DNA of 64,000 nucleotides, taken from positions 62,001 to 126,000 of the forward strand of contig NZ_QNUX01000005.1 of the NCBI RefSeq assembly GCF_003312425.1, read 5' to 3'. A program made the translations under genes and the position numbers. This document shows, piece by piece, positions 3,626 to 41,200 of the stretch (its first letter is position 1; each line of letters starts with the position of its first letter). This stretch comes from Flavobacterium psychrolimnae. GTDB taxonomy: Bacteria > Bacteroidota > Bacteroidia > Flavobacteriales > Flavobacteriaceae. The notes beneath the pieces were generated by a model, which was not told the DNA's origin, searched no databases, and saw only the letters and a program-made list of their open reading frames with translations.

Positions 3626-5478
3626 TACTTTTAAGAGATTTTAAATATTTTGTCAAAATCTTATTTTCTGTATTTTTTATATTTTTCCAGTTCTTAAGTT
3701 TTTTTGCACAAAATCAAAAGGTGGCTGATAGTCTTGTGAAGATCTATCATAAAAATAGCCTGGCAAATTCTGAGAAATTAGAATTACTGAGAAATTTATC
3801 TTTTAATGAAGTTAATAATCTCGAATTGTCACTAAAATATGCCGATGAACTTATTGCGCTCTCTCAGTTAGAAAAAAACTATTTGTACCTCCATCGCGGA
3901 TATTACCAAAAAGGGAATAAAAATAGGCTCAGAGGCGATCTAGACAAAGCCTTAAACGCATTTTTCAAAAGTGTTGAAGCAGCGATCAAAGCTAAATTTA
4001 TTATTGGTGAAGGCGTAGCCTACATGGCTATAGCTGATGTATATTCGATTATGGGAAATGCTGATAATGCCGAAATTTATTATAACAAATCAATCCATTT
4101 ATTAAGGAAAACCGATGATTCTATATCGTTAGCCAGTGCATTATTAAACGCTGGAGACGAATATTCCAAAAACAAAAAATACAATTTAGCTTTAAAATAT
4201 TTCAAAGAATCAAGTATCATTTTCGATAATGCCGATTATTTAATTGGCACTGCTTATAGTCTGGGTAATATTGGAATGATACATGCAAAACTCGGCAACA
4301 ATAATCTTGCAAAAACCTATATTAGTAAAGCCATAAAAATTCTGGAAGAGTTAAAAGATTATTATGCCATTTCGGAATACCTGACCTACATGTCCGACAT
4401 TTATTTAGCACTAAATGATTGGAAAACTTCTCTCAGCTATGCCAAACGAAGTCTGGATTTGGCTCAAAAATATGGACTTAAAGAACAAATCAGCAATGCT
4501 AATCTGAAACTGTCACAATTGCATCAGAAAACCGGAAACATGGCTGCATCATTTGCGTATTACAAGAATCATATTGCATACAGGGACAGTTTAACGAATC
4601 TTAAATCGATGCAACAAATGGCAGATATACGAACGAATTATGAAGTTTCGCAAAAGCAAACTGAAGTCGATTTACTCGAAAAAGATTCGGAAATCCAGAA
4701 ATTGAAAGATAAAAGACAACAAAACATCATATACATAACAGCAATTTCTTTATTCTTAGTTTTGGTAATCACAATTGGTTTTTACCGACGCTATAAATTT
4801 GTAAAAAAAACGAACAGCATTATTGAAGAAGAAAAAAATCGTTCTAATAATCTGTTGCTTAATATTTTGCCGGAAGAAACTGCTCTTGAATTAAAGAAAA
4901 ACGGAAAAGTACAAGCTAAAAAATTTGAATCAGTGACGGTTTTATTTACTGACTTTGAAGGATTTACACACTATGCAGAAAAACTGCCTCCTGAAAAACT
5001 AGTGGAAAGCATCGATTACTATTTCTCGAAATTTGATACTATTATGGAAAAATACAATCTTGAAAAGATAAAAACCGTAGGTGATGCTTATATGTGCGCA
5101 GGTGGTTTGCCATTTCCAACAGGAGATCATGCCTATAAAATGACACTTGCAGCACTGGAAATTGCCCGGTTTGTGAATATATCCGAAGAATTAATTACAC
5201 AAAACCAAACTCATTTTAAAATCAGAATCGGTATTAACACTGGCCCTTTAGTAGCCGGAGTGGTTGGGATCAAGAAATTTTCGTATGACATTTGGGGCGA
5301 TACCGTAAATATTGCTTCTCGTATGGAATCGAATTCGGAGCCAGGAAGAATTAATATATCGGAACATACGTATCAGATAATCAAAAATGACTTTGATTGT
5401 GAATATAGAGGCGAAATTGAAGTCAAAAATAAAGGAATGATGAAAATGTATTTCGTCAACGATCCTATTACACAGTAA
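3622..5478 (+). CDS. TPR-repeat class III adenylate cyclase, membrane-bound
   Basis: A 618-residue predicted adenylyl cyclase. Order: N-terminal hydrophobic signal (about 10-29), tetratricopeptide-like repeats (about 60-330), a short coiled region, one membrane segment (about 367-386, IIYITAISLFLVLVIT) and a class III cyclase domain (about 430-612). Metal-binding Asp444 (LFTDFEG) and Asp488 (VGDAYM) are present. The purine-selecting residues are Lys484 (KIKTVGD) and Asp556 (YDIWGD), the pair typical of ATP-using rather than GTP-using enzymes. Transition-state residues Asn563 and Arg567 (NIASRM) are kept, so it should be active. The TPRs would lie outside the inner membrane and could sense or bind a protein partner, perhaps the product of the overlapping upstream gene. 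Confidence 0.9.
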   Translation: MILLRDFKYFVKILFSVFFIFFQFLSFFAQNQKVADSLVKIYHKNSLANSEKLELLRNLSFNEVNNLELSLKYADELIALSQLEKNYLYLHRGYYQKGNKNRLRGDLDKALNAFFKSVEAAIKAKFIIGEGVAYMAIADVYSIMGNADNAEIYYNKSIHLLRKTDDSISLASALLNAGDEYSKNKKYNLALKYFKESSIIFDNADYLIGTAYSLGNIGMIHAKLGNNNLAKTYISKAIKILEELKDYYAISEYLTYMSDIYLALNDWKTSLSYAKRSLDLAQKYGLKEQISNANLKLSQLHQKTGNMAASFAYYKNHIAYRDSLTNLKSMQQMADIRTNYEVSQKQTEVDLLEKDSEIQKLKDKRQQNIIYITAISLFLVLVITIGFYRRYKFVKKTNSIIEEEKNRSNNLLLNILPEETALELKKNGKVQAKKFESVTVLFTDFEGFTHYAEKLPPEKLVESIDYYFSKFDTIMEKYNLEKIKTVGDAYMCAGGLPFPTGDHAYKMTLAALEIARFVNISEELITQNQTHFKIRIGINTGPLVAGVVGIKKFSYDIWGDTVNIASRMESNSEPGRINISEHTYQIIKNDFDCEYRGEIEVKNKGMMKMYFVNDPITQ

Positions 5479-5586
5479 AATTAAACCTTGGAAATGAAAC
5501 ACTTTTAGTTAATCTCTAAAGTATTTTTCTCCTCTAAAGAAGTAAAATTCCATAAGCTAACGGTTTTTACTATCTTTAAAAAAAAT

Positions 5587-6024
5587 ATGATGAAATCACA
5601 ATCCTATAAAAATCACATTCGCTATTATCCACCGCATCATTTTGTTTATTATCCAATAATCATGACATTGCTGGCTTTCAGCATTTATTTTAGTTGTACC
5701 ACTGAAGATTCTTTAATTTGGATATTTATCAGCGCTGTTTTTGTGGTGCTTTTTTGTCTGGCTTTCATGCTACGCCAGCATTATGCATTGACTTTACAAA
5801 ACCGAATCGTACGTCTAGAACTGAGGTATCGCTATTTTTCCATTACAGGAAAAAGACTGGAAAAATTTGAACATCAATTAAATGACGACCAACTATTTGC
5901 GTTGCGGTTTGCCCCAGACGATGAGTTTCCGTTGCTTACACAAAGAGCACTGAATGAAAACCTTTCGGGAAAGGAAATCAAAAAAGCGATTCAGCACTGG
6001 AAAGGTGACTACGAAAGAGTTTAA
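5587..6024 (+). CDS. Small membrane protein, DUF6526-like
   Basis: A 145-residue protein starting MMKSQSYKNHIRYYPPHHF, followed by two hydrophobic segments (about 20-38 and 43-63) and a charged cytoplasmic tail of about 80 residues. The N-terminal QSYKNH-RYYPPHHFV block and the two-helix layout match a small Bacteroidota membrane family (DUF6526) of unknown function. Two adjacent ATG codons make the exact start uncertain by one residue. A weak -7-like TATCTTTA lies just upstream at about 5572. Confidence 0.7.
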   Translation: MMKSQSYKNHIRYYPPHHFVYYPIIMTLLAFSIYFSCTTEDSLIWIFISAVFVVLFCLAFMLRQHYALTLQNRIVRLELRYRYFSITGKRLEKFEHQLNDDQLFALRFAPDDEFPLLTQRALNENLSGKEIKKAIQHWKGDYERV

Positions 6025-7381: not shown

Positions 7382-8638
7382 TTATTTTCCTCTGATGATT
7401 TCTACCGGATCTACTTTACTAGCTTTTAAAGCAGGAAAAAGTCCGGCAATGGTCGTTGTAAACAATGCAAAAGTAATTCCTATAATGTAAAATAACGGAT
7501 TGTAATTGATAGGATATGTTTTCACTGTAGGTAACGAAGCCGTTTCAAACGGAATCACATCAATAATAGAAGAAAAAACATAGCCAAACAGTAATCCAAA
7601 CAATCCTCCAGCCAATCCAATAATTATAGAAAGCGAAACAAAAATCCATTTTACATCATTACCGGAAAATCCTGTGGCTTTCAAAATCGCAATACTGTCC
7701 ATTTTTTCATAAATCATCATGTTCAGAATATTATAAATACCAAAACCAGCAACTATCAGCAACACCACTCCAACGGAATAGGAAATGATACTTCGCACTG
7801 AACTTCCGGTTTCAAACTGAGAATTTGCGGTTTGATAATCAATCGTATCCAGATTAAAAGTACTCTGGAACTCTTTTGCAACAGCAGGCGCTGAAGTCAT
7901 ATCGTACAAATTCAGCTGAATATCCGTGATGTAATTTGTAGGTTCTCCCAGAATTTTTTGGGCTGTCGCCAAAGAGGTATAACTCATCACATTATCGATT
8001 TCAGCAATTCCAATTTCGGAAATACCCACAATTTTAAGCGAAGCCAAATTTCCTTTAGAAGTCGTAATCTTGATGATATCTCCTTTGGTAAGCAACATTT
8101 TATCTGACAAACCTTTTCCGATAATAATACTGTTATTCTGAAGCAAATCAGCTACTTTTCCTTCAATAATATAATCACTGATTTTAAATAATTTATCTTC
8201 GGACAAAACATCAATTCCATTAATTATCCCTGATATTTCAATCGTCCCGGAATTAAAAAAAACGGATGTAGTGACCTTTGGCGCAACGTCAATAACACGT
8301 GGATCTTGTTTTAAAACAGCCAAAATTGTTTTACTGTTGTAAATGGATTTCCCTCGATCTTTGGGTTTAATCGAACGAACAAAATTGGTGTTTTTTTTAA
8401 ATTCCTCGGACAAGAGAACAGGTTGGTTTTCTGAAGGTTTAATTTCATTGTACAGCAATACATGAGGCGTTCTATTGAGCATTAAACCATCGAGCAAATC
8501 ATTTAAACCATTCATAAAACTAACCAAAGCAATGAACATGGCAATACTAAACGTTACGCCAATAGCAGCGACAATCGTTTGCTTCAATCGCGCCCGAAGC
8601 AAATGCAATGCAATGTTTAATATGAGTTTAAAGTTCAT
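7382..8638 (-). CDS. ABC transporter permease (FtsX/MacB type)
   Basis: A 418-residue permease with the MacB topology: a first membrane helix (about 20-42), a large periplasmic domain (about 45-275), then three helices near the C-terminus (about 285-310, 330-360, 375-405), ending KASKVDPVEIIRGK, a hallmark ending of this family. The start codon overlaps the stop of the adaptor gene by one base, and the ATPase follows. In canonical MacB the ATPase is fused to the permease; here it is a separate gene, as in LolCDE. Confidence 0.9.
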   Translation of the reverse strand: MNFKLILNIALHLLRARLKQTIVAAIGVTFSIAMFIALVSFMNGLNDLLDGLMLNRTPHVLLYNEIKPSENQPVLLSEEFKKNTNFVRSIKPKDRGKSIYNSKTILAVLKQDPRVIDVAPKVTTSVFFNSGTIEISGIINGIDVLSEDKLFKISDYIIEGKVADLLQNNSIIIGKGLSDKMLLTKGDIIKITTSKGNLASLKIVGISEIGIAEIDNVMSYTSLATAQKILGEPTNYITDIQLNLYDMTSAPAVAKEFQSTFNLDTIDYQTANSQFETGSSVRSIISYSVGVVLLIVAGFGIYNILNMMIYEKMDSIAILKATGFSGNDVKWIFVSLSIIIGLAGGLFGLLFGYVFSSIIDVIPFETASLPTVKTYPINYNPLFYIIGITFALFTTTIAGLFPALKASKVDPVEIIRGK

Positions 8639-9732
8639 TATTGAGGTTTATAAATCGTTTCTCCGGCGGTTAAACCAGATAGTATTTCCACTTTTTGATA
8701 ATCGCTCAAACCGGTTTTCACTTCCCGCTTTTCATCATTATTTACTAAGACATATTTGCCTTCTATTAAATATGTTTTTGGAATCGTGATCGTGTTCTTT
8801 TTTATCTGAATGATAATATTGGCTTCGGCAGTAAGATTTGGGTAGAGTTTTTCGGGTGGTTTTACGAAATGTGCTTCGATTTTAAATGTACGGGAACGTT
8901 CGTTCATTATCGGGTAAATTTTATCAATAACGGCATCAAAAACCTGTCCTTTGTAACTATCCATGGTAACCAAGACTCGTTGTCCGGTTCTTACTCGAAC
9001 CATGTCATTTTCGTCAACTTCCAATTCCAATAAAAATGAATTTTCCTGACCAATTATTGCCAAAGGAGTTTGTGGCGTAATTAACGTTCCTTCTTTTACC
9101 AGGACATCAAATAATTTTCCTGAGAAGGCACTTTTGACACTAAAATCACTCTGGGACTTCTGGTTGATTTTTAGGTTGACAGAATTTCTGCTTTGATCAT
9201 TCTTTAATTGGGCTTTGAGTTGTGCCAATTGTTTTTTAGCCGATTCGTAATTAATTTTGGAACTTTTATACGCTAATTCGACTCTTTCAAAATCAACTTC
9301 CGAAATTCCGCCCTGATTCCTGATGTTTTTATTTCGATTATAAATGGATTCGTCTAGCGTCAATTTGTCTCTGCTTGATTGGACTTTCATTTCCATTTCA
9401 GCAATTTTATCTTGAATATAACGACTGCTTTCCAGACTCAATTGATACGCCAATCGAGCATTCTCTGTATTTAGTTCCGCTTTATCACTTTCCAATTCAA
9501 ATAATGATTGCCCTTTACTTATGGATTGACCAGCGATAACATTTACTTTTTGCAAAGTACCATTTACGGTAGCATAAACCGTGTATTGTCCATCCGCTTT
9601 TATAACTCCGGAAGCATACACCGCTTCCGTAACTTCTCCTACAGTTGGTTTAATTTCTTCCATTTCATTTTTGGAACAAGAAAGCAAACTGAGCATTAGT
9701 AAACAAAATTGTATTCGTAATTTCAAACTCAT
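8638..9732 (-). CDS. Efflux periplasmic adaptor lipoprotein (HlyD/MacA family)
   Basis: A 364-residue membrane-fusion protein. A lipoprotein signal is visible (MSLKLRIQFCLLMLSLLSC, lipidated Cys19). Then come a first half-biotinyl/barrel segment (GQYTVYATVNGTLQKVNVIAGQ), a helical hairpin of about 100 residues rich in Lys, Gln and Glu (90-190), the returning lipoyl half (FSGKLFDVLVKEGTLI) and beta-barrel segments. It links the permease to an outer-membrane channel that is not encoded here. It is the first gene of the operon, so the promoter should lie in 9733-10035. Confidence 0.88.
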   Translation of the reverse strand: MSLKLRIQFCLLMLSLLSCSKNEMEEIKPTVGEVTEAVYASGVIKADGQYTVYATVNGTLQKVNVIAGQSISKGQSLFELESDKAELNTENARLAYQLSLESSRYIQDKIAEMEMKVQSSRDKLTLDESIYNRNKNIRNQGGISEVDFERVELAYKSSKINYESAKKQLAQLKAQLKNDQSRNSVNLKINQKSQSDFSVKSAFSGKLFDVLVKEGTLITPQTPLAIIGQENSFLLELEVDENDMVRVRTGQRVLVTMDSYKGQVFDAVIDKIYPIMNERSRTFKIEAHFVKPPEKLYPNLTAEANIIIQIKKNTITIPKTYLIEGKYVLVNNDEKREVKTGLSDYQKVEILSGLTAGETIYKPQ

Positions 9733-31999: not shown

Positions 32000-32069
32000 G
32001 ACGAGTTGTCCCGCTGTCTGCAGTATCCACGCCAAAAAGCGTGGGATACTTGCTCCCATCGGGGCTAAA
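32000..32069. repeat. Dispersed inverted-repeat element (cggggctaaa family)
   Basis: Begins GTTGTCCCGCTGTCTGCAG and ends CCCATCGGGGCTAAA, with a central hairpin GTATCCACGC / GCGTGGGATAC. Same family as 25581-25670. Confidence 0.7.
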
Positions 32070-32230
32070 TTACAACTTTTCGATTTCCTAAATTCTATAG
32101 AAAAAACAGAAATGACTACAACTAAACTAAGAAATATATACCCTTCATAATTGTAAAGGCATTCAATAAAGAATCCTTTTGATAATTTGTAAGAAAATTT
32201 TAGTATATTTGAGAAAACATAAATCGAAAC

Positions 32231-32276
32231 AAACCTTCGCCAATTTACCCATATTTGGGTGTAAATACGAAGGTTT
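32231..32276. repeat. Cassette-boundary palindrome R0
   Basis: Nine-bp arms AAACCTTCG / CGAAGGTTT enclose an inner TTTAC...GTAAA pair and CCA TATT TGG. It is an imperfect stem with extra unpaired bases, of the general shape of an attC-like recombination site. It is followed by TTTATAGCGC and lies about 50 bases before the first array gene. Confidence 0.6.
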
Positions 32277-32326
32277 ATAGCGCTTATACATTAGTTACCA
32301 GCAAGCTTAACAAATTACGGAGAAAT

Positions 32327-32932
32327 ATGATTGATTGGACAGAAGTTTTAAAAGTTGTTTTACCAATAATTGCAATTTGCATATCAGTAATTTCAACTAT
32401 TGTTGCTTGGAAAAATACCCAAAAACAAATTCGTGTTAATCGAATAGAGGAAATCATTTTAGTACTCCAAACATTAAACGGTATATATATTAATATGTTC
32501 TGGCTACTTAATGACTTAAAAAAATTAAACATTGAAAACACTTATGAATTGAGTGAATGGGAAACACGTGCTGAAAAACTCTTTGCTATGCTAAAAGAAA
32601 ACGTTTCAACCGATGGGTTTAAAAGACTTAGAGTTCTTTTAAATGCTTATCTCCCAAACAAAAAAGGAACGCCTATAAAAATCAAATTACTTGCAATTTC
32701 AGCGCTCTATTATGATTATTTTGTTGCCATAGAAAATAAAAATTTTACAATCATAACTAATAAATACGATTCAGAAAAAATACCAAAACCAAATGTTATG
32801 TCTAACTATCTAAACGCATTAGAAAATGACTTAATTAAAGAAATGAAACTTGGTTTCGAAGGATTGAATTTTAATTTACTAAAAAAATATAGGAGTGAAA
32901 AATTTCTAAAAGATTTAGGAATTCACGAATAA
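32327..32932 (+). CDS. Single-pass membrane protein of unknown function (cassette gene 1)
   Basis: 201 residues from the ATG at 32327; the longer frame starts with a TTG inside the upstream palindrome and is rejected. One membrane segment (about 8-26, VLKVVLPIIAICISVISTIV), then a charged, mostly helical cytoplasmic part of about 170 residues. No recognised domain. It is the first of several small genes separated by palindromic elements and has AT-rich, accessory-like composition. Function unknown. Confidence 0.75.
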   Translation: MIDWTEVLKVVLPIIAICISVISTIVAWKNTQKQIRVNRIEEIILVLQTLNGIYINMFWLLNDLKKLNIENTYELSEWETRAEKLFAMLKENVSTDGFKRLRVLLNAYLPNKKGTPIKIKLLAISALYYDYFVAIENKNFTIITNKYDSEKIPKPNVMSNYLNALENDLIKEMKLGFEGLNFNLLKKYRSEKFLKDLGIHE

Positions 32933-32935
32933 AGC

Positions 32936-33073
32936 CTGCTGGCAAAAGCCACTAAAACGGATTTGGGCAATTGGCTTAATGTAAAGATGGTTTTGCATCT
33001 GGGATGATTTGGCAAATCCGAAAATAGGGCTTAATTTAGTCCCAATCCCGCTGTAGTAGCGGGACTTTAGCAG
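32936..33073. repeat. Cassette-boundary element R1
   Basis: Begins with CTGCTGG three bases after the stop codon and ends with the inverse AGCAG. Within it CGGATTTG (32958-32965) pairs with CAAATCCG (33013-33020), and an inner AGATG / CATCT pair is seen. A further hairpin, TCCCGCT / AGCGGGA, lies at 33046-33064. The first 85 bases are nearly the same as R2. Confidence 0.7.
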
Positions 33074-33130
33074 TAAACTTACCACTTGAAAAATCCTGAA
33101 ATAGAGAAAATTTAATTCTTTAAATAAAAA

Positions 33131-33913
33131 ATGGAAATACCAAAAGCTCCAAGAATACTTTACAAATATCGAGATTTGAAAGATGATTTTTACAAAAAAA
33201 TAATACTTGAAAATGAATTATATTTAACATCAGTTGATAAATTTAATGATCCTTTTGATTCCACGTTTCCATTTCAGCACGATAAAAAAGAATTGACAGA
33301 AGAAAATGTTCTCAAAAAATTTGTAGAAATCAACAGTAAAAATCATCCAAATGTACCTATAACTCAATTCATCAACGAAGCCAAAGAAAGATTTGCCAAA
33401 GGAGAATTTACTTCTGATGATTTTTGGAGAAAAGACCACGAAAAAACAAAAAGACAAATAAACGAAATGTATGGAATTTGCTGTCTTACAACAAAAAAAG
33501 ATAATTTATTGATGTGGGCACATTATGCAAACTCACATTCCGGAATTTGTATTGGTTTTGACACTGAAACTCTCTATAAATCAGATAAGGTAATGATTTT
33601 AAAAGTTAATTATTCTGATAGTTTTCCAAAAATCCCATTATTCGAAAATGGAGTTGGAATGTTGAGTTTAACAACTACAAAATCTAAACATTGGGAATAT
33701 GAAGATGAATATAGATTATCTAAACATTTTGCACCTAAAACTTCAATAAAACTTAAAGATGATGCTATTAGGGAAATAATTTTCGGCTGTAATATTGACA
33801 ATCAAAGTCGTGAGGAAATAATTTCAATTGTAAAAATCAAATCTCTTAAAATAAAACTTTATGATTGTAAAATTGATGATAAAGAATTCAAATTAAACAT
33901 TGTAGAAATATAA
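33131..33913 (+). CDS. DUF2971 domain protein (cassette gene 2)
   Basis: 260 residues. The DUF2971 signature is visible: LYKYRDLKD, then VDKFNDPFDS, GICCLTTKKDNLLMWAHYAN and SGICIGFD. The domain's biochemical role is unknown; members are common in mobile and defence-rich regions. It is flanked by the two elements R1 and R2. Confidence 0.88.
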   Translation: MEIPKAPRILYKYRDLKDDFYKKIILENELYLTSVDKFNDPFDSTFPFQHDKKELTEENVLKKFVEINSKNHPNVPITQFINEAKERFAKGEFTSDDFWRKDHEKTKRQINEMYGICCLTTKKDNLLMWAHYANSHSGICIGFDTETLYKSDKVMILKVNYSDSFPKIPLFENGVGMLSLTTTKSKHWEYEDEYRLSKHFAPKTSIKLKDDAIREIIFGCNIDNQSREEIISIVKIKSLKIKLYDCKIDDKEFKLNIVEI

Positions 33914-33920
33914 AAGGCTA

Positions 33921-34024
33921 CTGCTAACAGCCACTACAACGGATTTTGGCAATTGGCTTAATGTAAAATTGGTTTTGTATTTGGAAGATTTGGCAAATCC
34001 GCTGTAATACCCGAACTTTAGCTA
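33921..34024. repeat. Cassette-boundary element R2
   Basis: Starts CTGCTAA seven bases after the stop codon and ends CTTTAGC, so GCTAA and TTAGC bound it. CGGATTTT (33940) pairs with CAAATCCG (33994-34001). Its first 81 bases match R1 (common core GGCAATTGGCTTAATGTAAA). The sequence between unrelated genes is thus conserved while the genes are not. Confidence 0.75.
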
Positions 34025-34080
34025 TCAATGTAAAACGATATTCAAACAAAATACAAACAAACAAAATATTGACAGGAAAA

Positions 34081-34632
34081 ATGACAACCGAAAACACTTT
34101 GACACTTTTAAACTCAATTCATAGCGACCTAAAAGTTGTGAAAGAATTAGTTTATGACAAATGTGGGTTTGACTTAACAAACTTGAAACAGAACAAAGAA
34201 AGTAAAGAGTACGGCGCATGCACTTTTGAACTTAACGGAAGAAAAATTCAACAACGAATTTCTAAAATTACACCTAAAAAAGCAGGTCAATTTGTAACGG
34301 TGTGGAAACGAAACAAAGACGGAATTACTGAACCTTTAGACAATTCAGACAATTTTGATTTTGTAATTATCACAGCAAGAAATAACGATAATTTCGGACA
34401 ATTTATTTTTCCTAAATCGGTGTTGGCTGACAAAGGAATAATAACACGAAACGGAAAAACTGGAAAACGTGGAATTAGAGTTTATCCAACTTGGGATTTT
34501 ACAATAAACGAACAAGCTAAAAAAACACAAACTTGGCAGACAAAATATTTTATGATAATTAAAAGTGACAGCGCTACTGACCTTGATTTAGCAAAGAAAT
34601 TATTAACACAAACTAAAATAATTAGCGAATAA
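34081..34632 (+). CDS. MepB family protein (cassette gene 3)
   Basis: 183 residues from the ATG at 34081 (the frame extends to a TTG at 34069, not preferred). MepB family, recognised from KKAGQFVTVWKRNKDG, FDFVIITAR, FGQFIFPKSVLADKGI and GKRGIRVYPTWD. The family is named after a gene near the MepA multidrug pump of Staphylococcus; its own function is unknown. It is flanked by R2 and R3. Confidence 0.88.
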   Translation: MTTENTLTLLNSIHSDLKVVKELVYDKCGFDLTNLKQNKESKEYGACTFELNGRKIQQRISKITPKKAGQFVTVWKRNKDGITEPLDNSDNFDFVIITARNNDNFGQFIFPKSVLADKGIITRNGKTGKRGIRVYPTWDFTINEQAKKTQTWQTKYFMIIKSDSATDLDLAKKLLTQTKIISE

Positions 34633-34642
34633 AAACAACGAA

Positions 34643-34787
34643 CTGCTAATATGGGTTTGACAAAAGTGAGGCTTTAGTACTAGGCTGAATATTTGTAATT
34701 TCTAAAACTCACCTTCGCTGAGCTCAAAAACGTTGGTTTCAATTATCCTGACGACTGCATAATTAACAACATGAAACAAAATAAACA
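34643..34787. repeat. Cassette-boundary element R3
   Basis: Starts CTGCTAATATGGGTTTG ten bases after the MepB stop. Inner complementary bits AAGTGAG / CTCACCTT are seen. It is a different subtype from R1/R2, but has the same position relative to the stop codon and the same CTGCTAA start. Confidence 0.55.
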
Positions 34788-35042
34788 ATGAAGAACAAAG
34801 ATTTTTCAGAATTCACTGACCAAGAATTATTAGATGAAACAAAAAAAATGAAATCATTTTCGATTACTAATGCCTTGATTATTGGATTTTTAGTAGGAAT
34901 AATATTTTACAGTATTGTTAAAAACAGTTGAGGATTTCTTACATTAATCCCTTTGTATTTTATCTACAAAATGATTAACGACCCTAAAAACAAAAGAAGT
35001 AAATACTTGGAAGAACTTTTGAAAGTAAGAGATTTGAAATAA
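34788..35042 (+). pseudogene. Small membrane protein gene broken by an in-frame TGA (cassette gene 4)
   Basis: An 84-codon frame from ATG 34788 to TAA 35040-35042 has one in-frame stop, TGA at 34929-34931 (codon 48). The first part reads MKNKDFSEFTDQELLDETKK, followed by a hydrophobic segment. After the stop the frame continues with GFLTLIPLYFIYKMINDP and ends KYLEELLKVRDLK. The two halves fit one small two-segment membrane protein, and TGA is one base from TGG (Trp), so a nonsense mutation is likely. A 47-residue truncated product is possible. Confidence 0.7.
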
Positions 35043-35796: not shown

Positions 35797-36798
35797 TTAT
35801 CTTCCGGTATAATTTGGGCAACCGAAACACTTTACATCCAAATTAAATTGATAAGTTAAAGAAAGTTCATAGATACCGCCCGTTTTTCCAATTTTGGAAG
35901 TATTTAAATCATAAGCGATACCCAATCGTAAGTGATCGTATTGTAATCCTGTAAAAAGATTAACGGATGTCAGCAACTGGCTATTCAAACCATTTTTAGC
36001 AGGATTTGTTACCGCAGTGGCACCAAAAAACATTTTCTCGAATAATATCGAAGCTCCGACATCGAGTCGGTTATAGCGTCCTTGCTGCATGTAATTTGAA
36101 GTTACAAACATTTTAGTCGCATATGGAAAAAATTTCACATCTATATAGTTTGCAAGAAGAAATTCATAACCGGTACTCAGCGAGAAAAAAGTATTCAAAG
36201 GCACGTTTCCGTCTTCGGTAAACGCAATATTAGGTTTGTTGAGATGTTTCATAGATAAACCAATCCACATACTTTCGGTATTGAAAACCATCCCTGCGCT
36301 CGCATCAAAAAAACTTACTTTGTCATTCATTAACAATGGATCAATAGAATTTGCATTAACGATTCCTGTTCTGATATTTATTTGATCCTCTAATAATAAA
36401 TTTTGAAACGCAAAAGATTTAAGTCCAAAACCAACTTCTATAGCAGGTCTGAAATCCCAATCATCGCTAATTCTTACCTTATAGGCATAATTAGCATTGA
36501 TTTGCGTAAAATTATAGTTGGTGGCATTTTCTCTTTGGTTTAAAACACTAATACCGTATCCACTATTCATGTTTTCGTTCCAAGTATTAACAAAAGCATA
36601 ATCAGTGTCAATTTTTAAATCTAAATCAGGCCATTGTTCTCTGTGAATAATACCCGTGTAGGTGGTTTCCATAAAACCTGAAAAACCAGGATTCAACGTT
36701 TCCGGTACCAAAAAATATTGTGTAAAAACAGGATCTTGCGCGTTTACTTTTGAATAAATACAACAGGATATAATTATAATAAATAGTTTAATTTTCAT
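35797..36798 (-). CDS. PorP/SprF family type IX secretion membrane protein
   Basis: 333 residues with a signal peptide (about 1-20, MKIKLFIIIISCCIYSKVNA). PorP/SprF family, recognised from QDPVFTQYFLVPETLNPGFSG, YGISVLNQRE, FDASAGMVF and GIAYDLNTSKIG. These are outer-membrane beta-barrel proteins that pair with a large type IX-secreted adhesin, here the gene upstream on the same strand. The gap is 16 bases, so the two are probably one operon. Confidence 0.92.
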   Translation of the reverse strand: MKIKLFIIIISCCIYSKVNAQDPVFTQYFLVPETLNPGFSGFMETTYTGIIHREQWPDLDLKIDTDYAFVNTWNENMNSGYGISVLNQRENATNYNFTQINANYAYKVRISDDWDFRPAIEVGFGLKSFAFQNLLLEDQINIRTGIVNANSIDPLLMNDKVSFFDASAGMVFNTESMWIGLSMKHLNKPNIAFTEDGNVPLNTFFSLSTGYEFLLANYIDVKFFPYATKMFVTSNYMQQGRYNRLDVGASILFEKMFFGATAVTNPAKNGLNSQLLTSVNLFTGLQYDHLRLGIAYDLNTSKIGKTGGIYELSLTYQFNLDVKCFGCPNYTGR

Positions 36799-36814
36799 TC
36801 TTTAATGCGTTGCT

Positions 36815-39800
36815 TTATTTGATTAATGTAAAGGCACCATCTTCAATTATGGTGTGATTGTAAAATGTTTTGGCGGTGAGTTTGAAATGGTAATTTCCAT
36901 TTTCGGCATCTAAATCTTTAATTTTTCCGTTCCAGCCACTCAAGGTTTGCCCTTTTTCACTGTGAACTAAACTACCCCACGTATCGTAGATATCTAAAGT
37001 CATTTCTATGAAACCAAGAAATACAGGGGAAAAAGTGTCGTTTACACCGTCACCATTAGGTGTAAATGCATTTGGCATCATTAGACTGTATCCTTTTTCT
37101 ACTATTAAAGTAATAGTATGAACATATTGGCAACCAAAAGGATAAGTGACTATTTGCTTTATCGTATATGTACCTGTTTTTGTGAAGATGTGTTTTGGAC
37201 TTTCTTCATCAGAAAAATTACCATCTCCAAAATCCCAAGCAATTTTTGTATAATCTCCTGTGGCTAAATTGTTGAACAAAATAGGGTCGTAAATAGAATA
37301 TAATCCATAGACATCATTCCCATAAGAAGTTGTTTCAAAGTTTGCTTCTCCCAGTACTGGTGTATCAACATTATAGGTAATATCAGCACTACAACCAAAG
37401 CTGTCAGTAACACTAAATATAATCAAACCATTATTATTGGTATTCATTATTTCATTGTTAGCACCAGTCACAACACCGTCAGACCAGCTTAATTGATATG
37501 GAGGAACACCGCCTTTTACCTTTCCTACAAATGTTTGTCGGACGTATTTAGTGTCGCAATCAAAATCATTTAAAACTTCAATGGTAGGCGTCAGTTGCTC
37601 AAATCGAATAATTTTCCAAGATTCCGACTTTTTACAGCCGTTCGCATCAGTGACCGTTACGGTATAATTTTCAGGAGGTAGGTTTTGAAGATCTTCAGTA
37701 GTAGCTCCGTTTGACCACGAGAATGTAAATGGTGGCGCACCTCCGGTTACGACTAAATTAATCGCTCCTGTATTCGCATCCAAACAATTTAAAGGATTAG
37801 AAACATCAGCTCGCAACTCTAATGGTAAAGGTTCTGTAATGATAAATGTTTCCTTTATTTTACACAATTTACCGTCAGTAATTGTCACCGTATATTTTCC
37901 GGGTCCGATATTATTTCGATCCATGCCGGCAGTTGCATTATCATCCCAAACTAAAGTTACCGGAGCTTTACCTCCAACAAGATTCAGTCTGATATAAGCG
38001 TCTTTTTCACCAAAACAAGAAATCTGTTTAATATCAGGATTTATCGTAAATATCGGCGCATTATCTATCGTAATATTAAATTGTTTTTCACAGCCTAATG
38101 AATCTGTAATGGTAATTATATAAGTTCCTGCCGATAAATTATTCTGAACACGTCCTATACCTAAATTACTCCATTTGATCAGATATGGGTTTCCAGTTGA
38201 AAATGGAATTCCTCCACCTATATTGGTAATAGTGATAGACGCATTGGCATCATTATAACAAGCTATTTCAGTTTTAGTATAAGTAATAAATAGTTCATTG
38301 TTTTGAAGTAAAACAACTTGTAAATCCTTTCTACATCCTGAATTATCAGTTACTGTTAATCGGTATGTTCCCGCTTCCACATTTCGCAGATTTTGAAGCG
38401 TACTGTTGAATCCGTTTGGTCCGGTCCAACGGTAATTGTAATTTAATATTCCCGGGGAAATTTCAGTAGCTCTTCCGCCAGTTGCTTCCACATTAATTTC
38501 TCCTGTAAAGTCTCCGTAACATAAAATATTCACTTGACTGATTAAATTCACTTTCAATATTGGAGGCTCAATAATAGTAAATGTTTCAGTTAGTGTATCA
38601 CAATTATTTGCTTCAGTAATTGTTACTTTATAAACTCCGGGAGACAAATTATCAAGATTTCCGGAAGTTGTATAAGGTATGCCATTTTTGGTCCAAACAT
38701 AGTTGTAAGGCAAAGTTCCTCCGTTAGTTGTTAAAGTTATCTTCCCATCATTGTTTCCAAAACATGTTATATCATTTTTAAACCCTGAAAAAGCAAATTT
38801 ATCAGGTTCACTAATCGTATAACTTCTGATAAAAGGACAATTTCCGTTATCAATAACCCGTAATGTGTAAACTCCGGGCTGCAAATTAGAAATATCTTCA
38901 TCCGAACTAGTAAAACCATTGGGTCCAGTCCATGAAAATGAATATGGTTTTCCAGTTGAAAATGGGATTCCACCACTAACAGCTATATTTAAAGATCCAT
39001 TGTTGGCACCAAAACAAGTTGCGTTTTTAATAGTATCAATTACATTTATCAATGAATTAACTAGTATTGTAACTGTAAAATTAGGTCCCGGGCAACTGCC
39101 AGATATAGGTGAAACCGTATACGTTACAGTGGCAGGATTTGAGGTATTATTAGTTAGTGTTTGACTGATATTTGTTTGGGGTGAAAATTGTGCTGTAGCT
39201 CCACTTATTGCACCTGCGGGAGAAACCGTCGGCGTTGACCAAGTGTATGTGGTACCTGATGGGACATTATCCGTTCCGTCACTCACTGGCCTTACTTGAA
39301 AGGTTTCGCCACTACAAATTTTTAATTCCTTGGGCTTTATAATAGGTGAAAGCACCAAATTAACTGAAAAGTTTGCTGTTTTGGTTGTAGTTCCACAACT
39401 ATTGGTTACACTGAAAATAGCTTGATAATTTCCACTGGCAGAATAATTGATTGATCCTGGATTTAGAGATGTAGATGAGGAAGGAAAACCGCCAGGAAAG
39501 CTCCAAAGATAGGTTACTTCCGAACTTGGTGAACAAGTCTCTAAGACTGTTCCCACTGGTCTGATGGTTGCCGAATTACAAAAATCAGATATGGGACTCA
39601 ATGTGGTAACAGGTGGTTTTTTCACTTGAATTATCTCCGTAATTGACCGGTCAATACCACAGGAATTTCTTGTTGTTAATCTAAGATAATAAGTACCTGG
39701 CGTTATAAAATTAAAAACCGGGTTTTTTGATGAAGGTCCTGTACCGTTCGTAAAATTCCATTGACCGGTTCCTTTTCCACAAAAACCCTCAAAATAATTT

Positions 39801-41200
39801 ACAATCTCCCAATAATAACTTTCGGCTCCACAGCTAAGACTAGTATCAGTAGTATTTGTAATTTGTACATTGCTTGAAGCACAAGCATTTCCATAGGTAA
39901 ATCTTGGCTGTAATACAGGCTCGACACATACCCATCTGCTAAAAGAAGTCCCTTTACCGCATGGTGTTTCTGCAGATAATGTAATTTTATATTTCCCCGG
40001 TAATGCATATATGTGAGTTGGATTTACATCTCTGGAAGGTGCGCTTCCATCACCAAAATCCCAAGTATATACATTAAAAGTACTACAATCATTTGTATAT
40101 CCGGCAACTGTTGAATTACTGAAATAAACAGATGTATTAGCGCATACAATACTATTAACATTAAAGCTTATAGTAGGCACATCTAAGATAATAATGGGAC
40201 CTGCAGTTAGGTAAGTACTTCCACAGGATGTTGATATTGTTAAACCTACTGTGTTACCAGAAGGACAATTAAATCTTGTAAAAGTATGCGGAATAGGGAA
40301 ATTTTGAGAAGCTGACGGATTTGCTGCATTATAATAAGGAGAGCTTTCTAATTGGACTTGAGTATAATTTTTAATTGTCCCATCACCATAATTAACTTGA
40401 TATTTTGTATCTGAGGGGTTAAGGGCCCATGATCCAATAGCAAATTCCATAGGAGCAACAGGTAAACATAAATTAGTAGTATTACCAGGAGCTATGAGAG
40501 CCCCGATTGGATTATTAGAATTCTTAACTATATAAATAATAGAATTATTGCAACTATTACTTCCAATTCCTGTTACAATCATATTAAATGACCCTAACTT
40601 CATATAGGTATGCGTTCTGGGGAAAGTAACATTTGTTTCTACACTACCATCGCCCCAATCTACGGTATAAGATGTAATGCAGGATATTGAAGTAGAATTA
40701 TTACCAACATTTATAGTGTATTTCAGATCTGAATTATTATCACCACACTTTTCAAAAGGAGCGCTCGAACCTGAAGGAGCATTTAAGTTTACAAATTTTA
40801 AATCTGGTTTCTGTTTAACCGAAATAACTTTTGCTATGGAACTAATCCCTCCATTAGTATCAGTAACTGTTAGCTTTACATTGAAATTCTGCATACCACA
40901 ACCAAGTGCTGTAAAAATATGGGTAGGATTAACAACTGAGGATTTATTTCCATCACCAAAATCCCATTCATATTTAAAAGGAGCGTCTCCAGCTACTGTA
41001 GATGTAAATGCTATTGGAGTTCCGGAACAGCTGCCATCATTATTAAAACTAAAAGAAACAACAGGTGCTACTAATTCACTTTTATAAACTGTATGTGTTA
41101 TTTTTTTTGTATGATTTTTATCGAAGTTATTATTATTTCCAAAAACAGAAACAGTAATCAATAAAAAAAAGATATGTGAAAGAAAATAAAGATTCCTCAT
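36815..41200 (-). CDS. Giant PKD/SprB-repeat surface protein with T9SS type B sorting domain
   Basis: 1461 residues. Signal peptide (about 1-21), several PKD domains in the first 600 residues (YEWDFGDGNKSSVVNPTHIF, VYTWDFGDGSAPS), and about six SprB-type repeats (about 730-1270), each with a C-x-G-x-x-x-G start and an ending like VTDSNGC. The C-terminus (from about 1370) has MPNAFTPNGDGVNDTFSPVF and ends in the CHU_C/gliding-motility domain, a type B T9SS signal. Probably a secreted or cell-surface adhesin/gliding protein. It is the partner of the PorP/SprF gene downstream. Confidence 0.92.
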   Translation of the reverse strand: MRNLYFLSHIFFLLITVSVFGNNNNFDKNHTKKITHTVYKSELVAPVVSFSFNNDGSCSGTPIAFTSTVAGDAPFKYEWDFGDGNKSSVVNPTHIFTALGCGMQNFNVKLTVTDTNGGISSIAKVISVKQKPDLKFVNLNAPSGSSAPFEKCGDNNSDLKYTINVGNNSTSISCITSYTVDWGDGSVETNVTFPRTHTYMKLGSFNMIVTGIGSNSCNNSIIYIVKNSNNPIGALIAPGNTTNLCLPVAPMEFAIGSWALNPSDTKYQVNYGDGTIKNYTQVQLESSPYYNAANPSASQNFPIPHTFTRFNCPSGNTVGLTISTSCGSTYLTAGPIIILDVPTISFNVNSIVCANTSVYFSNSTVAGYTNDCSTFNVYTWDFGDGSAPSRDVNPTHIYALPGKYKITLSAETPCGKGTSFSRWVCVEPVLQPRFTYGNACASSNVQITNTTDTSLSCGAESYYWEIVNYFEGFCGKGTGQWNFTNGTGPSSKNPVFNFITPGTYYLRLTTRNSCGIDRSITEIIQVKKPPVTTLSPISDFCNSATIRPVGTVLETCSPSSEVTYLWSFPGGFPSSSTSLNPGSINYSASGNYQAIFSVTNSCGTTTKTANFSVNLVLSPIIKPKELKICSGETFQVRPVSDGTDNVPSGTTYTWSTPTVSPAGAISGATAQFSPQTNISQTLTNNTSNPATVTYTVSPISGSCPGPNFTVTILVNSLINVIDTIKNATCFGANNGSLNIAVSGGIPFSTGKPYSFSWTGPNGFTSSDEDISNLQPGVYTLRVIDNGNCPFIRSYTISEPDKFAFSGFKNDITCFGNNDGKITLTTNGGTLPYNYVWTKNGIPYTTSGNLDNLSPGVYKVTITEANNCDTLTETFTIIEPPILKVNLISQVNILCYGDFTGEINVEATGGRATEISPGILNYNYRWTGPNGFNSTLQNLRNVEAGTYRLTVTDNSGCRKDLQVVLLQNNELFITYTKTEIACYNDANASITITNIGGGIPFSTGNPYLIKWSNLGIGRVQNNLSAGTYIITITDSLGCEKQFNITIDNAPIFTINPDIKQISCFGEKDAYIRLNLVGGKAPVTLVWDDNATAGMDRNNIGPGKYTVTITDGKLCKIKETFIITEPLPLELRADVSNPLNCLDANTGAINLVVTGGAPPFTFSWSNGATTEDLQNLPPENYTVTVTDANGCKKSESWKIIRFEQLTPTIEVLNDFDCDTKYVRQTFVGKVKGGVPPYQLSWSDGVVTGANNEIMNTNNNGLIIFSVTDSFGCSADITYNVDTPVLGEANFETTSYGNDVYGLYSIYDPILFNNLATGDYTKIAWDFGDGNFSDEESPKHIFTKTGTYTIKQIVTYPFGCQYVHTITLIVEKGYSLMMPNAFTPNGDGVNDTFSPVFLGFIEMTLDIYDTWGSLVHSEKGQTLSGWNGKIKDLDAENGNYHFKLTAKTFYNHTIIEDGAFTLIK

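Follow-up and report, generated by a model that had tools for sequence, protein, structure and literature searches.

In a classical integron, a cassette has complementary ends, since these come together as a single attC site in the excised circle; once a site is integrated, its left and right ends derive from two different cassettes. The R box of these sites has the consensus GTTRRRY/RYYYAAC, and the cassettes lie on the strand opposite to the integrase and run in the direction away from it. Archaeal XerA, a related recombinase, is a chromosome dimer resolution enzyme, and we know of no role for it in cassette movement. According to the accessible part of one source, the ends of classical attC sites pair over 9 to 11 nt and strand choice depends mainly on extrahelical bases (PMC2727003). 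Integrons have been reported in Bacteroidota (PMC8618304, PMC9668308) and in the Bacteroidetes/Chlorobi group (PMC2426708), with complete arrays being rare: the accessible text on IntegronFinder 2.0 names one complete integron within Bacteroidetes proper, that of Salinibacter ruber (PMC9024848). Here, we analyzed 64,000 nucleotides of Flavobacterium psychrolimnae DNA (the window; assembly GCF_003312425.1, contig NZ_QNUX01000005.1, forward strand; C19:62001-126000) from a genome of 3.65 Mb in 23 contigs. An initial annotation of the window had described four small genes separated by palindromic elements, R0 to R3, that resemble the attC sites of integrons or those of some comparable cassette system. 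Judged from sequence comparison, the window very probably holds a decayed member of an integron-like Bacteroidota system, with an attI-like site, three to four cassettes, and an integrase that has been lost. Our search of open-licence papers, which leaves out most subscription papers and all bioRxiv preprints, turned up no account of a system of this kind.

We examined the copies and placement of the elements. The roughly 80 bases said to be shared by R1 and R2 correspond to a direct repeat of 72 nt at 85% identity plus 19 nt at 95%. Within its own genome, R1 had 12 matches at E ≤ 1e-4 (R1 and R2 counted), two of which (L015 and L018) are pieces of one element, leaving 11 places. Ten of these 11 copies begin 1 to 6 nt past the stop codon of a same-strand open reading frame (ORF) of at least 60 aa, and random repeat spread is therefore hardly likely; the odd copy out (L011) lies 238 nt past a stop codon. 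This placement differs from that of repetitive extragenic palindromic (REP) sequences and miniature inverted-repeat transposable elements (MITEs), which spread independently of the neighboring gene and its orientation. Beyond the source genome, R1-type elements were present in 31 of 61 same-genus genomes, often clustered, and the same-genus stretches revealed gene-element-gene-element arrays in a single orientation. In one of these genomes, all 40 scored candidates (of 128) matched at E ≤ 1e-33. The further copies that the initial annotation proposed to look for are thus tandem arrays, and the elements are neither restricted to this locus nor parts of one duplicated gene. In the alignment of copies, variable sequence occupies both borders of the site: the opening stretch ends in AAC, and the closing stretch starts with GTT. 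Two copies (L016 and L018) carry an insert of about 27 nt in mid-site, resembling TTCGC.TGTTCGCT. R3 is a separate case: blastn at E ≤ 0.1 found no second copy in its own genome, which rules it out as an own-genome repeat, and its relatives lie in other array loci (L069, 82% over 66 nt; L131, 76% over 59 nt). Rfam gave no match (E ≤ 1) on the elements of the 11 loci searched; the RNA Flavo-1 (RF01705) and other Rfam RNAs were rejected, the three Flavo-1 matches in these loci falling outside the elements.

Pairing between the two ends of one cassette is the signature of an integron and the decisive test for this system. Complete flanks were available for 74 of 76 elements from selected arrays, giving 52 neighbor pairs less than 3.5 kb apart. 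The two ends of the same cassette agreed at a mean of 6.69 of 9 positions (offsets 3 to 11 from GTT), whereas ends belonging to one element agreed at 2.97 and randomly paired ends at 3.05, and the observed sum was reached in none of 10,000 permutations. The paired ends that had been described within R1 and within R2 must consequently be read differently: across the 74 elements, within-element pairing is no better than random, and the true pairing runs from end to end across the cassette. Offset 10 is exceptional, with a match in only 1 of 52 pairs. The left end has A at this offset in 67 of 74 sites and the right end has C in 59 of 74, which is an A.C mismatch on the top strand and a G.T pair on the bottom strand. 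The R box begins with GTTR in 66 of 74 sites, and the full GTTRRRY occurs in 4 of 74. In the window, both cassette 1 (32294 with 32946) and cassette 2 (33066 with 33928) show the A.C position and pair at 8 of 9 positions outside it (offsets 3 to 12); at offsets 3 to 11 they agree at 7 of 9 each, a level attained by 2.5% of random end pairs. GTT has drifted at several window cassette ends, and cassette 3, which has also drifted, pairs weakly.

Can cassettes be recognized with no use of element sequence? We applied a rule based on the ends alone (GTTRn6A ... C + complement + AAC) to 53 of the 80 named loci; here and below, hit and cassette counts by rule include overlapping hits where repeated ends pair repeatedly. 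Of the hits it gave, 48 lie downstream of the integrase on the same strand, 5 lie upstream on the opposite one, and 4 fall elsewhere. Control rules with G, A, or T instead of the C had totals of 5, 7, and 8 hits. The downstream hits came from 23 of the 53 loci, nearly all of them Bacteroidota, and one of the 23 is a Spirochaetota metagenome-assembled genome. Within the genus, a slightly looser rule revealed 65 hits in arrays and 40 in integrase loci, compared to shuffle means of 5.4 and 3.4; the G, A, and T controls gave 9, 19, and 28 hits in arrays and 5, 10, and 8 in integrase loci. Of 144 rule-defined cassettes with an ORF of at least 50 aa, 130 have their longest ORF in the same direction as the cassette. 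The exact 7-nt rule misses the window's own cassettes because their ends have drifted (3 window hits versus a shuffle mean of 2). Classical integron arrays, analyzed in parallel, have ends that pair over 8 to 10 nt, and offset 10 carries no constant mismatch (12 distinct cassettes, each counted on both strands and selected for 8 matching nt, with chance pairs possible). At L131 and L164, rule-defined cassettes show the divergent orientation of classical integrons, lying on the strand opposite to the integrase and running away from it.

A search for an integron-type or other recombinase, also proposed at the outset, identified a dedicated tyrosine recombinase of about 347 aa at the head of element arrays in same-genus genomes. 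Of 20 integrase loci of the genus, at least 10 have R1-type elements behind the integrase, in its orientation and within 5.5 kb; at L118, they follow only a 91-aa integrase fragment. Residues R, K, H, R, H, and Y, which we take to be catalytic, are invariant in a ten-sequence alignment. NF040815, "site-specific tyrosine recombinase/integron integrase," was the best model for all seven enzymes scanned, with 211 to 243 bits and its cut-off of 220 passed by three. The predicted structure (predicted local distance difference test [pLDDT] score of 80; predicted template modeling [pTM] score of 0.54) is closest in its recombinase core to XerA (5hxy_D; Z 21.5, root mean square deviation [rmsd] 14.0, 252 aligned), and the closest integron enzyme is IntI4 (2a3v_C; Z 19.8, rmsd 5.2, 258 aligned). 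Residues 1 to 56 are predicted to form a small extra N-terminal domain, weakly HARP-like: Pfam HARP matched in 2 of 23 proteins (best, 0.0059) and DUF5710 in 5 of 23 (best, 6e-5), the top Foldseek match was the SMARCAL1 HARP domain (4o66; E = 0.31), and the VIA-align structural comparison barely covers residues 1 to 66. By eye, the integrases of L116 and L130, about 590 aa long, carry the HARP-like N-terminal domain about three times before the core.

One potential explanation for these arrays is that the window is an ordinary integron remnant, a cluster of attC sites lacking an integrase (CALIN), whose sites are served by a classical IntI. The cassette logic and the GTT joint would be the same, and the ends of classical attC sites are also complementary. 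However, TIGR02249 had no match over its cut-off in the 61 same-genus genomes. Seven head-of-array proteins scored 196 to 217 bits versus a cut-off of 265, and four classical IntI controls scored 454 to 488 bits. The match to the head-of-array class comes in two parts (about 2-179 and 239-315 in the seven proteins; approximately 90 to 124 bits each in the 61 genomes). Because these parts cover only the flanks of the IntI-specific region, the head-of-array enzyme is without the IntI insert; in comparison with IntI4 (2a3v), about 44 residues are missing between the two parts. In a tree of 80 rows (59 of 67 named proteins, 19 from the genus, and 2 own recombinases taken as Xer), seven classical IntI proteins formed a 100/100 clade on a long stem, with no head-of-array enzyme in it. 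The backbone of this tree was unresolved, and approximately unbiased tests rejected neither a clade uniting IntI with the head-of-array enzymes (p-AU, 0.092) nor a single clade of 45 Bacteroidota enzymes (p-AU, 0.18). On the TIGR02249 scores we rejected classical IntI as the actor, and the rarity of GTTRRRY also argues against it; an ordinary integron remnant is highly unlikely. Other relatives of the recombinase, from Alphaproteobacteria and Variovorax (L179, L185, L189, L191, and L192; one on a plasmid), form a branch of their own, and L179, the sole member of that branch searched, showed no cassettes by rule.

On the basis of these arrays, we then asked what the window retains of a docking site. 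A hidden Markov model (HMM) of 7 integrase-adjacent sequences, window excluded, matches window positions 32170 to 32302 (E = 3.3e-19), and its sole other match in the window is the same palindrome on the other strand. Because this model matches there, we assign R0, which the initial annotation had grouped with R1 and R2, to a separate class as an attI-like site. Where the integrase gene is present, its stop codon precedes a hairpin of about 70 nt that leads up to the first cassette's GTT, and in many loci a TAnnTTTG-like box lies between stop codon and hairpin. We take TAnnTTTG to be a promoter consensus, with TATATTTG of the window and the recurring box as promoter candidates. The initial annotation was right that the window holds no integrase, and a decayed C-terminal remnant is left: HSIKNPFDNL*, compared to the integrase C terminus QQIKSPFDDL*, keeps I-K-x-P-F-D-x-L-stop (60 to 75% over 8 to 10 residues). 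The integrase-tail/attI module is present in 45 of 121 same-genus genomes, and its own genome has seven matches, window included (the others are C1:291569-291701 minus, C3:134548, C18:223574, C1:90870, C1:499327, and C17:5596). BLAST homology to the window attI stops within a few bases of GTT in 13 of 29 loci, earlier in 12, 14 to 15 nt past it in 3, and further in 1. Three genomes have in common a block of 395 to 443 bp (94 to 97% identical) whose end coincides with GTT to within one base; the cassettes beyond it are unrelated. The sequence upstream of this block also differs, and therefore the three attI blocks need not be one chromosomal place. An empty-site comparison at the window's own locus gave no result because its two flanks do not occur together in any matching relative.

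No integrase of the head-of-array class was found in the window or in its genome, which has six tyrosine-recombinase matches, none of them inside the window. Could the host's chromosomal XerC/XerD move the cassettes, with the head-of-array recombinase being incidental? The source genome does have cassettes with no recombinase of this class, and its best matches to the integrase alignment, at 149 and 116 bits, look Xer-like. Nevertheless, a dedicated recombinase is linked with attI and array in several lineages, and the cassettes of the source genome can be relics, which leaves host Xer as the agent with a very low probability. Least probable of all, to the point of being negligible, is that the elements are dispersed repeats (REP, MITE, or 3' untranslated-region RNA elements) behind stop codons of immobile genes, since, multi-copy, palindromic, and directly behind genes as they are, their ends pair across the gene and not inside the element, they form tandem arrays behind an integrase, gene-plus-site units are duplicated with exact ends, and Rfam, as noted, does not match them.

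We also folded the sites. In the L stem of the 74 R1-type sites, 16 of 18 facing positions are mostly Watson-Crick with compensatory changes (one pair, for example, is GC in 29 sites, CG in 22, and AT in 8), and a second A.C position is present in 70 of 74. There was no bulged column, and hence no extrahelical base, among columns filled in at least half of these L stems; the column analysis covers R1-type sites, and the other subtypes were folded. In models of the excised circle, the bottom strand was more stable in 41 of 44 R1-type sites, with mean energies of -28.8 kcal/mol for the bottom strand, -24.4 for the top strand, and -12.6 for shuffles (44 of 52 pairs; 8 with poor ends were left out, which favors pairing). 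For R1-type sites as joined in the array, the bottom strand was more stable in 32 of 44. Sites picked by the rule at 13 loci, some of them about 60 nt long, favored the bottom strand in 23 of 25 (24 distinct, one L163 site being counted twice). The folding check suggested by the initial annotation therefore predicts, in terms of energy only, a bottom strand more stable than the top. By analogy, G.T versus A.C could set strand choice in place of extrahelical bases; against this wobble idea, some bottom strands of other subtypes show C.A at one place in the L stem (by eye).

The features of the locus are collected in Table 1.

Table 1. Features of the cassette locus, in window coordinates
Feature	Position	Strand	Description and basis
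Decayed integrase C-terminal end, HSIKNPFDNL*	32160..32192	+	tblastn with integrases; in register with attI alignment
Candidate cassette promoter, -7 box TATATTTG	32204..32211	+	Similar box at same place in many aligned attI loci
attI-like site (R0)	32213..32293	+	Hairpin CGAAACAAACCTTCG..CGAAGGTTTATAGCG up to cassette joint; HMM match
Cassette 1	32294..33065	+	Left end GTTACCAGCAAGC, gene 32327-32932, attC1; complementary ends including A.C position
attC1 (R1)	32934..33065	+	Copies in own genome and relatives
Cassette 2	33066..34016	+	Left end TTTAGCAGTAAAC, gene 33131-33913 DUF2971 (Pfam), attC2; complementary ends including A.C position
attC2 (R2), 3' half shortened	33916..34016	+	Sequence comparison with R1 and copies
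Cassette 3	34017..34731	+	MepB-like gene 34081-34632, attC3; ends partly complementary
attC3 (R3), separate attC subtype	34638..34731	+	blastn relatives in array loci L069, L131
Partial cassette 4	34732..35042	+	Left end GTTGGTTTCAATT; TGA interrupts small gene 34788-35042

Two of the four gene assignments were confirmed by Pfam, DUF2971 in cassette 2 (E = 2.9e-10) and the MepB-like gene in cassette 3 (E = 4e-51). The first gene (201 aa) has no confident Pfam family. Gene 4 is interrupted by an in-frame TGA at 34929-34931, and downstream of it cassette 4 has no clear right end or partner end. Upstream of the integrase remnant, window 32003-32070 (minus strand) matches Flavo-1 RNA (RF01705) with 37.9 bits versus a gathering score of 42, and a related stretch lies elsewhere in the genome (C12:58194-58319). 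Adjoining the remnant array, window 35797-41200 (minus strand) holds a large gene for a 1461-aa protein, presumably a repeat protein, and then a 333-aa gene whose product we take to resemble PorP/SprF-type proteins.

Taken together, the anatomy of the arrays with a recombinase at their head, the linkage of integrase and array, the complementary ends, the attI blocks that break at GTT, and the asymmetry in folding, all established by computation, bear out the initial proposal of attC sites or a similar cassette system. How might such a system work? In intact members, a XerA-like tyrosine recombinase of about 347 aa stands first, an attI-like site bearing a promoter-like box comes next, and the cassettes follow, each consisting of one gene and an attC-like site. 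A cassette would leave as a circle, in which the joining of its complementary ends makes the attC whole. In this site the bottom strand would fold into a hairpin, and the integrase would cut at the GTT boundary and join the cassette to attI, so that newly joined cassettes would land next to the promoter. In the window, the integrase gene would have been lost except for its last codons. From this anatomy we infer single-strand recombination, promoter function of the box, action of the recombinase on these sites, and the identity of the lost gene as that recombinase.

Several observations weigh against this interpretation of the window as a decayed integron-like array. Integrase and element are not associated among the 61 same-genus genomes: the element is present in 15 of 32 genomes with the integrase and in 16 of 29 without it. 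Relics and other attC types could account for the missing association. An integrase of more than 40 aa lies upstream in 7 of 29 attI loci, with 22 being without (29 of 30 loci were scored; L266 and L277 had less than 1 kb upstream, and L253, with a 33-aa integrase end, was scored as without). Many of these copies are therefore relics, or their spread is unexplained by our interpretation. The remnant of about 10 codons is, on its own, not significant (E 0.15 to 0.22; tblastn in a 461-nt search). By rule, 30 of the 53 named loci have no downstream cassette (some contigs end nearby), and the T-for-C control in the arrays of the genus, where the DNA is AT-rich, is not low at 28 versus 65. One enzyme (L157) scores higher with XerD and XerC models than with TIGR02249, and the accessible part of one source calls the insert that is missing here essential for integron function (PMC8138268). 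Finally, the support is computational, and it is from such data that we infer recombination.

How does the system compare with those already described? It resembles a classical integron in its head-of-array integrase, its docking site, and its cassettes, which mostly hold one gene and are closed by a palindromic site. The GTT joint, the complementary cassette ends, the better-folding bottom strand, and the size of the sites (about 60 to 160 nt) are also alike, as is the hairpin site after the integrase stop codon, ending at GTT. In contrast, its enzyme is placed outside the IntI clade in our tree (which did not reject a joint clade), lacks the IntI insert, has an extra N-terminal domain, and is mostly oriented as the cassettes are; its R box is cassette-specific, complementarity resumes past the conserved A.C at offset 10, and the R1-type L stem has no extrahelical base. 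The enzyme is like archaeal XerA and the NF040815 family with respect to the best solved structure for the core and the best family model, although its N-terminal domain lies outside the match. The source genome resembles a CALIN in having attC-like sites and no integrase of this class, but an attI-like site and the tail of an integrase survive in the window, and the attC type differs. Integration of CTXphi by XerCD is similar in that its single-strand substrate is a hairpin free of extrahelical bases and its recombinases have no I2-like domain, as far as the accessible text of PMC4792948 describes it; unlike here, a phage is integrated by host Xer, with no cassettes and no dedicated integrase. 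A strict definition excludes the system from the classical integrons: it lacks the IntI insert and the GTTRRRY box and, in R1-type sites, the extrahelical bases. In function, there is a high likelihood that it works like an integron. We would go further only tentatively, and with somewhat more doubt than belief: this may be a second kind of integron, of separate origin from a XerA-like recombinase without the IntI insert, in which G.T wobbles (A.C on the opposite strand) at conserved positions set strand choice instead of extrahelical bases and the HARP-like domain helps to hold the folded strand, and which is common in Bacteroidota and missed by IntI-defined searches.

Relatives of the recombinase are present in Algoriphagus, Cyclobacterium, Aquiflexum, Rufibacter, Pontibacter, Winogradskyella, Seonamhaeicola, Algibacter, and others, and all the genera named here are among the 23 rule-positive loci. 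A recombinase match at E ≤ 1e-60 was found in 94 of 296 Bacteroidota genomes, a count of the recombinase only, in which the weaker matches may include other enzymes. Whole cassettes recur with exact ends; two copies of 894 bp, with another cassette between them, are 100% identical. One cassette is 80% identical in two species (L073 3462-4545 minus; L124 11245-12362 minus), and its presence in arrays of different subtypes suggests that cassettes may be exchanged between attC subtypes. At L068, repeated pairs of a tyrosine recombinase and a second gene (3779-5652 and 7741-9614) break the array of genome G045; the partner gene looks like what we take to be an IS91-type transposase. Cassette contents are diverse. 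For 117 of 127 cassette proteins, which were aligned for the family and defense searches, no Pfam family occurred more than twice at E ≤ 1e-4, and single proteins matched defense models, e.g., an oligonucleotide cyclase, GajA, and AbiU. The cassettes of this system bring in varied accessory genes, a few of which match anti-phage defense models.

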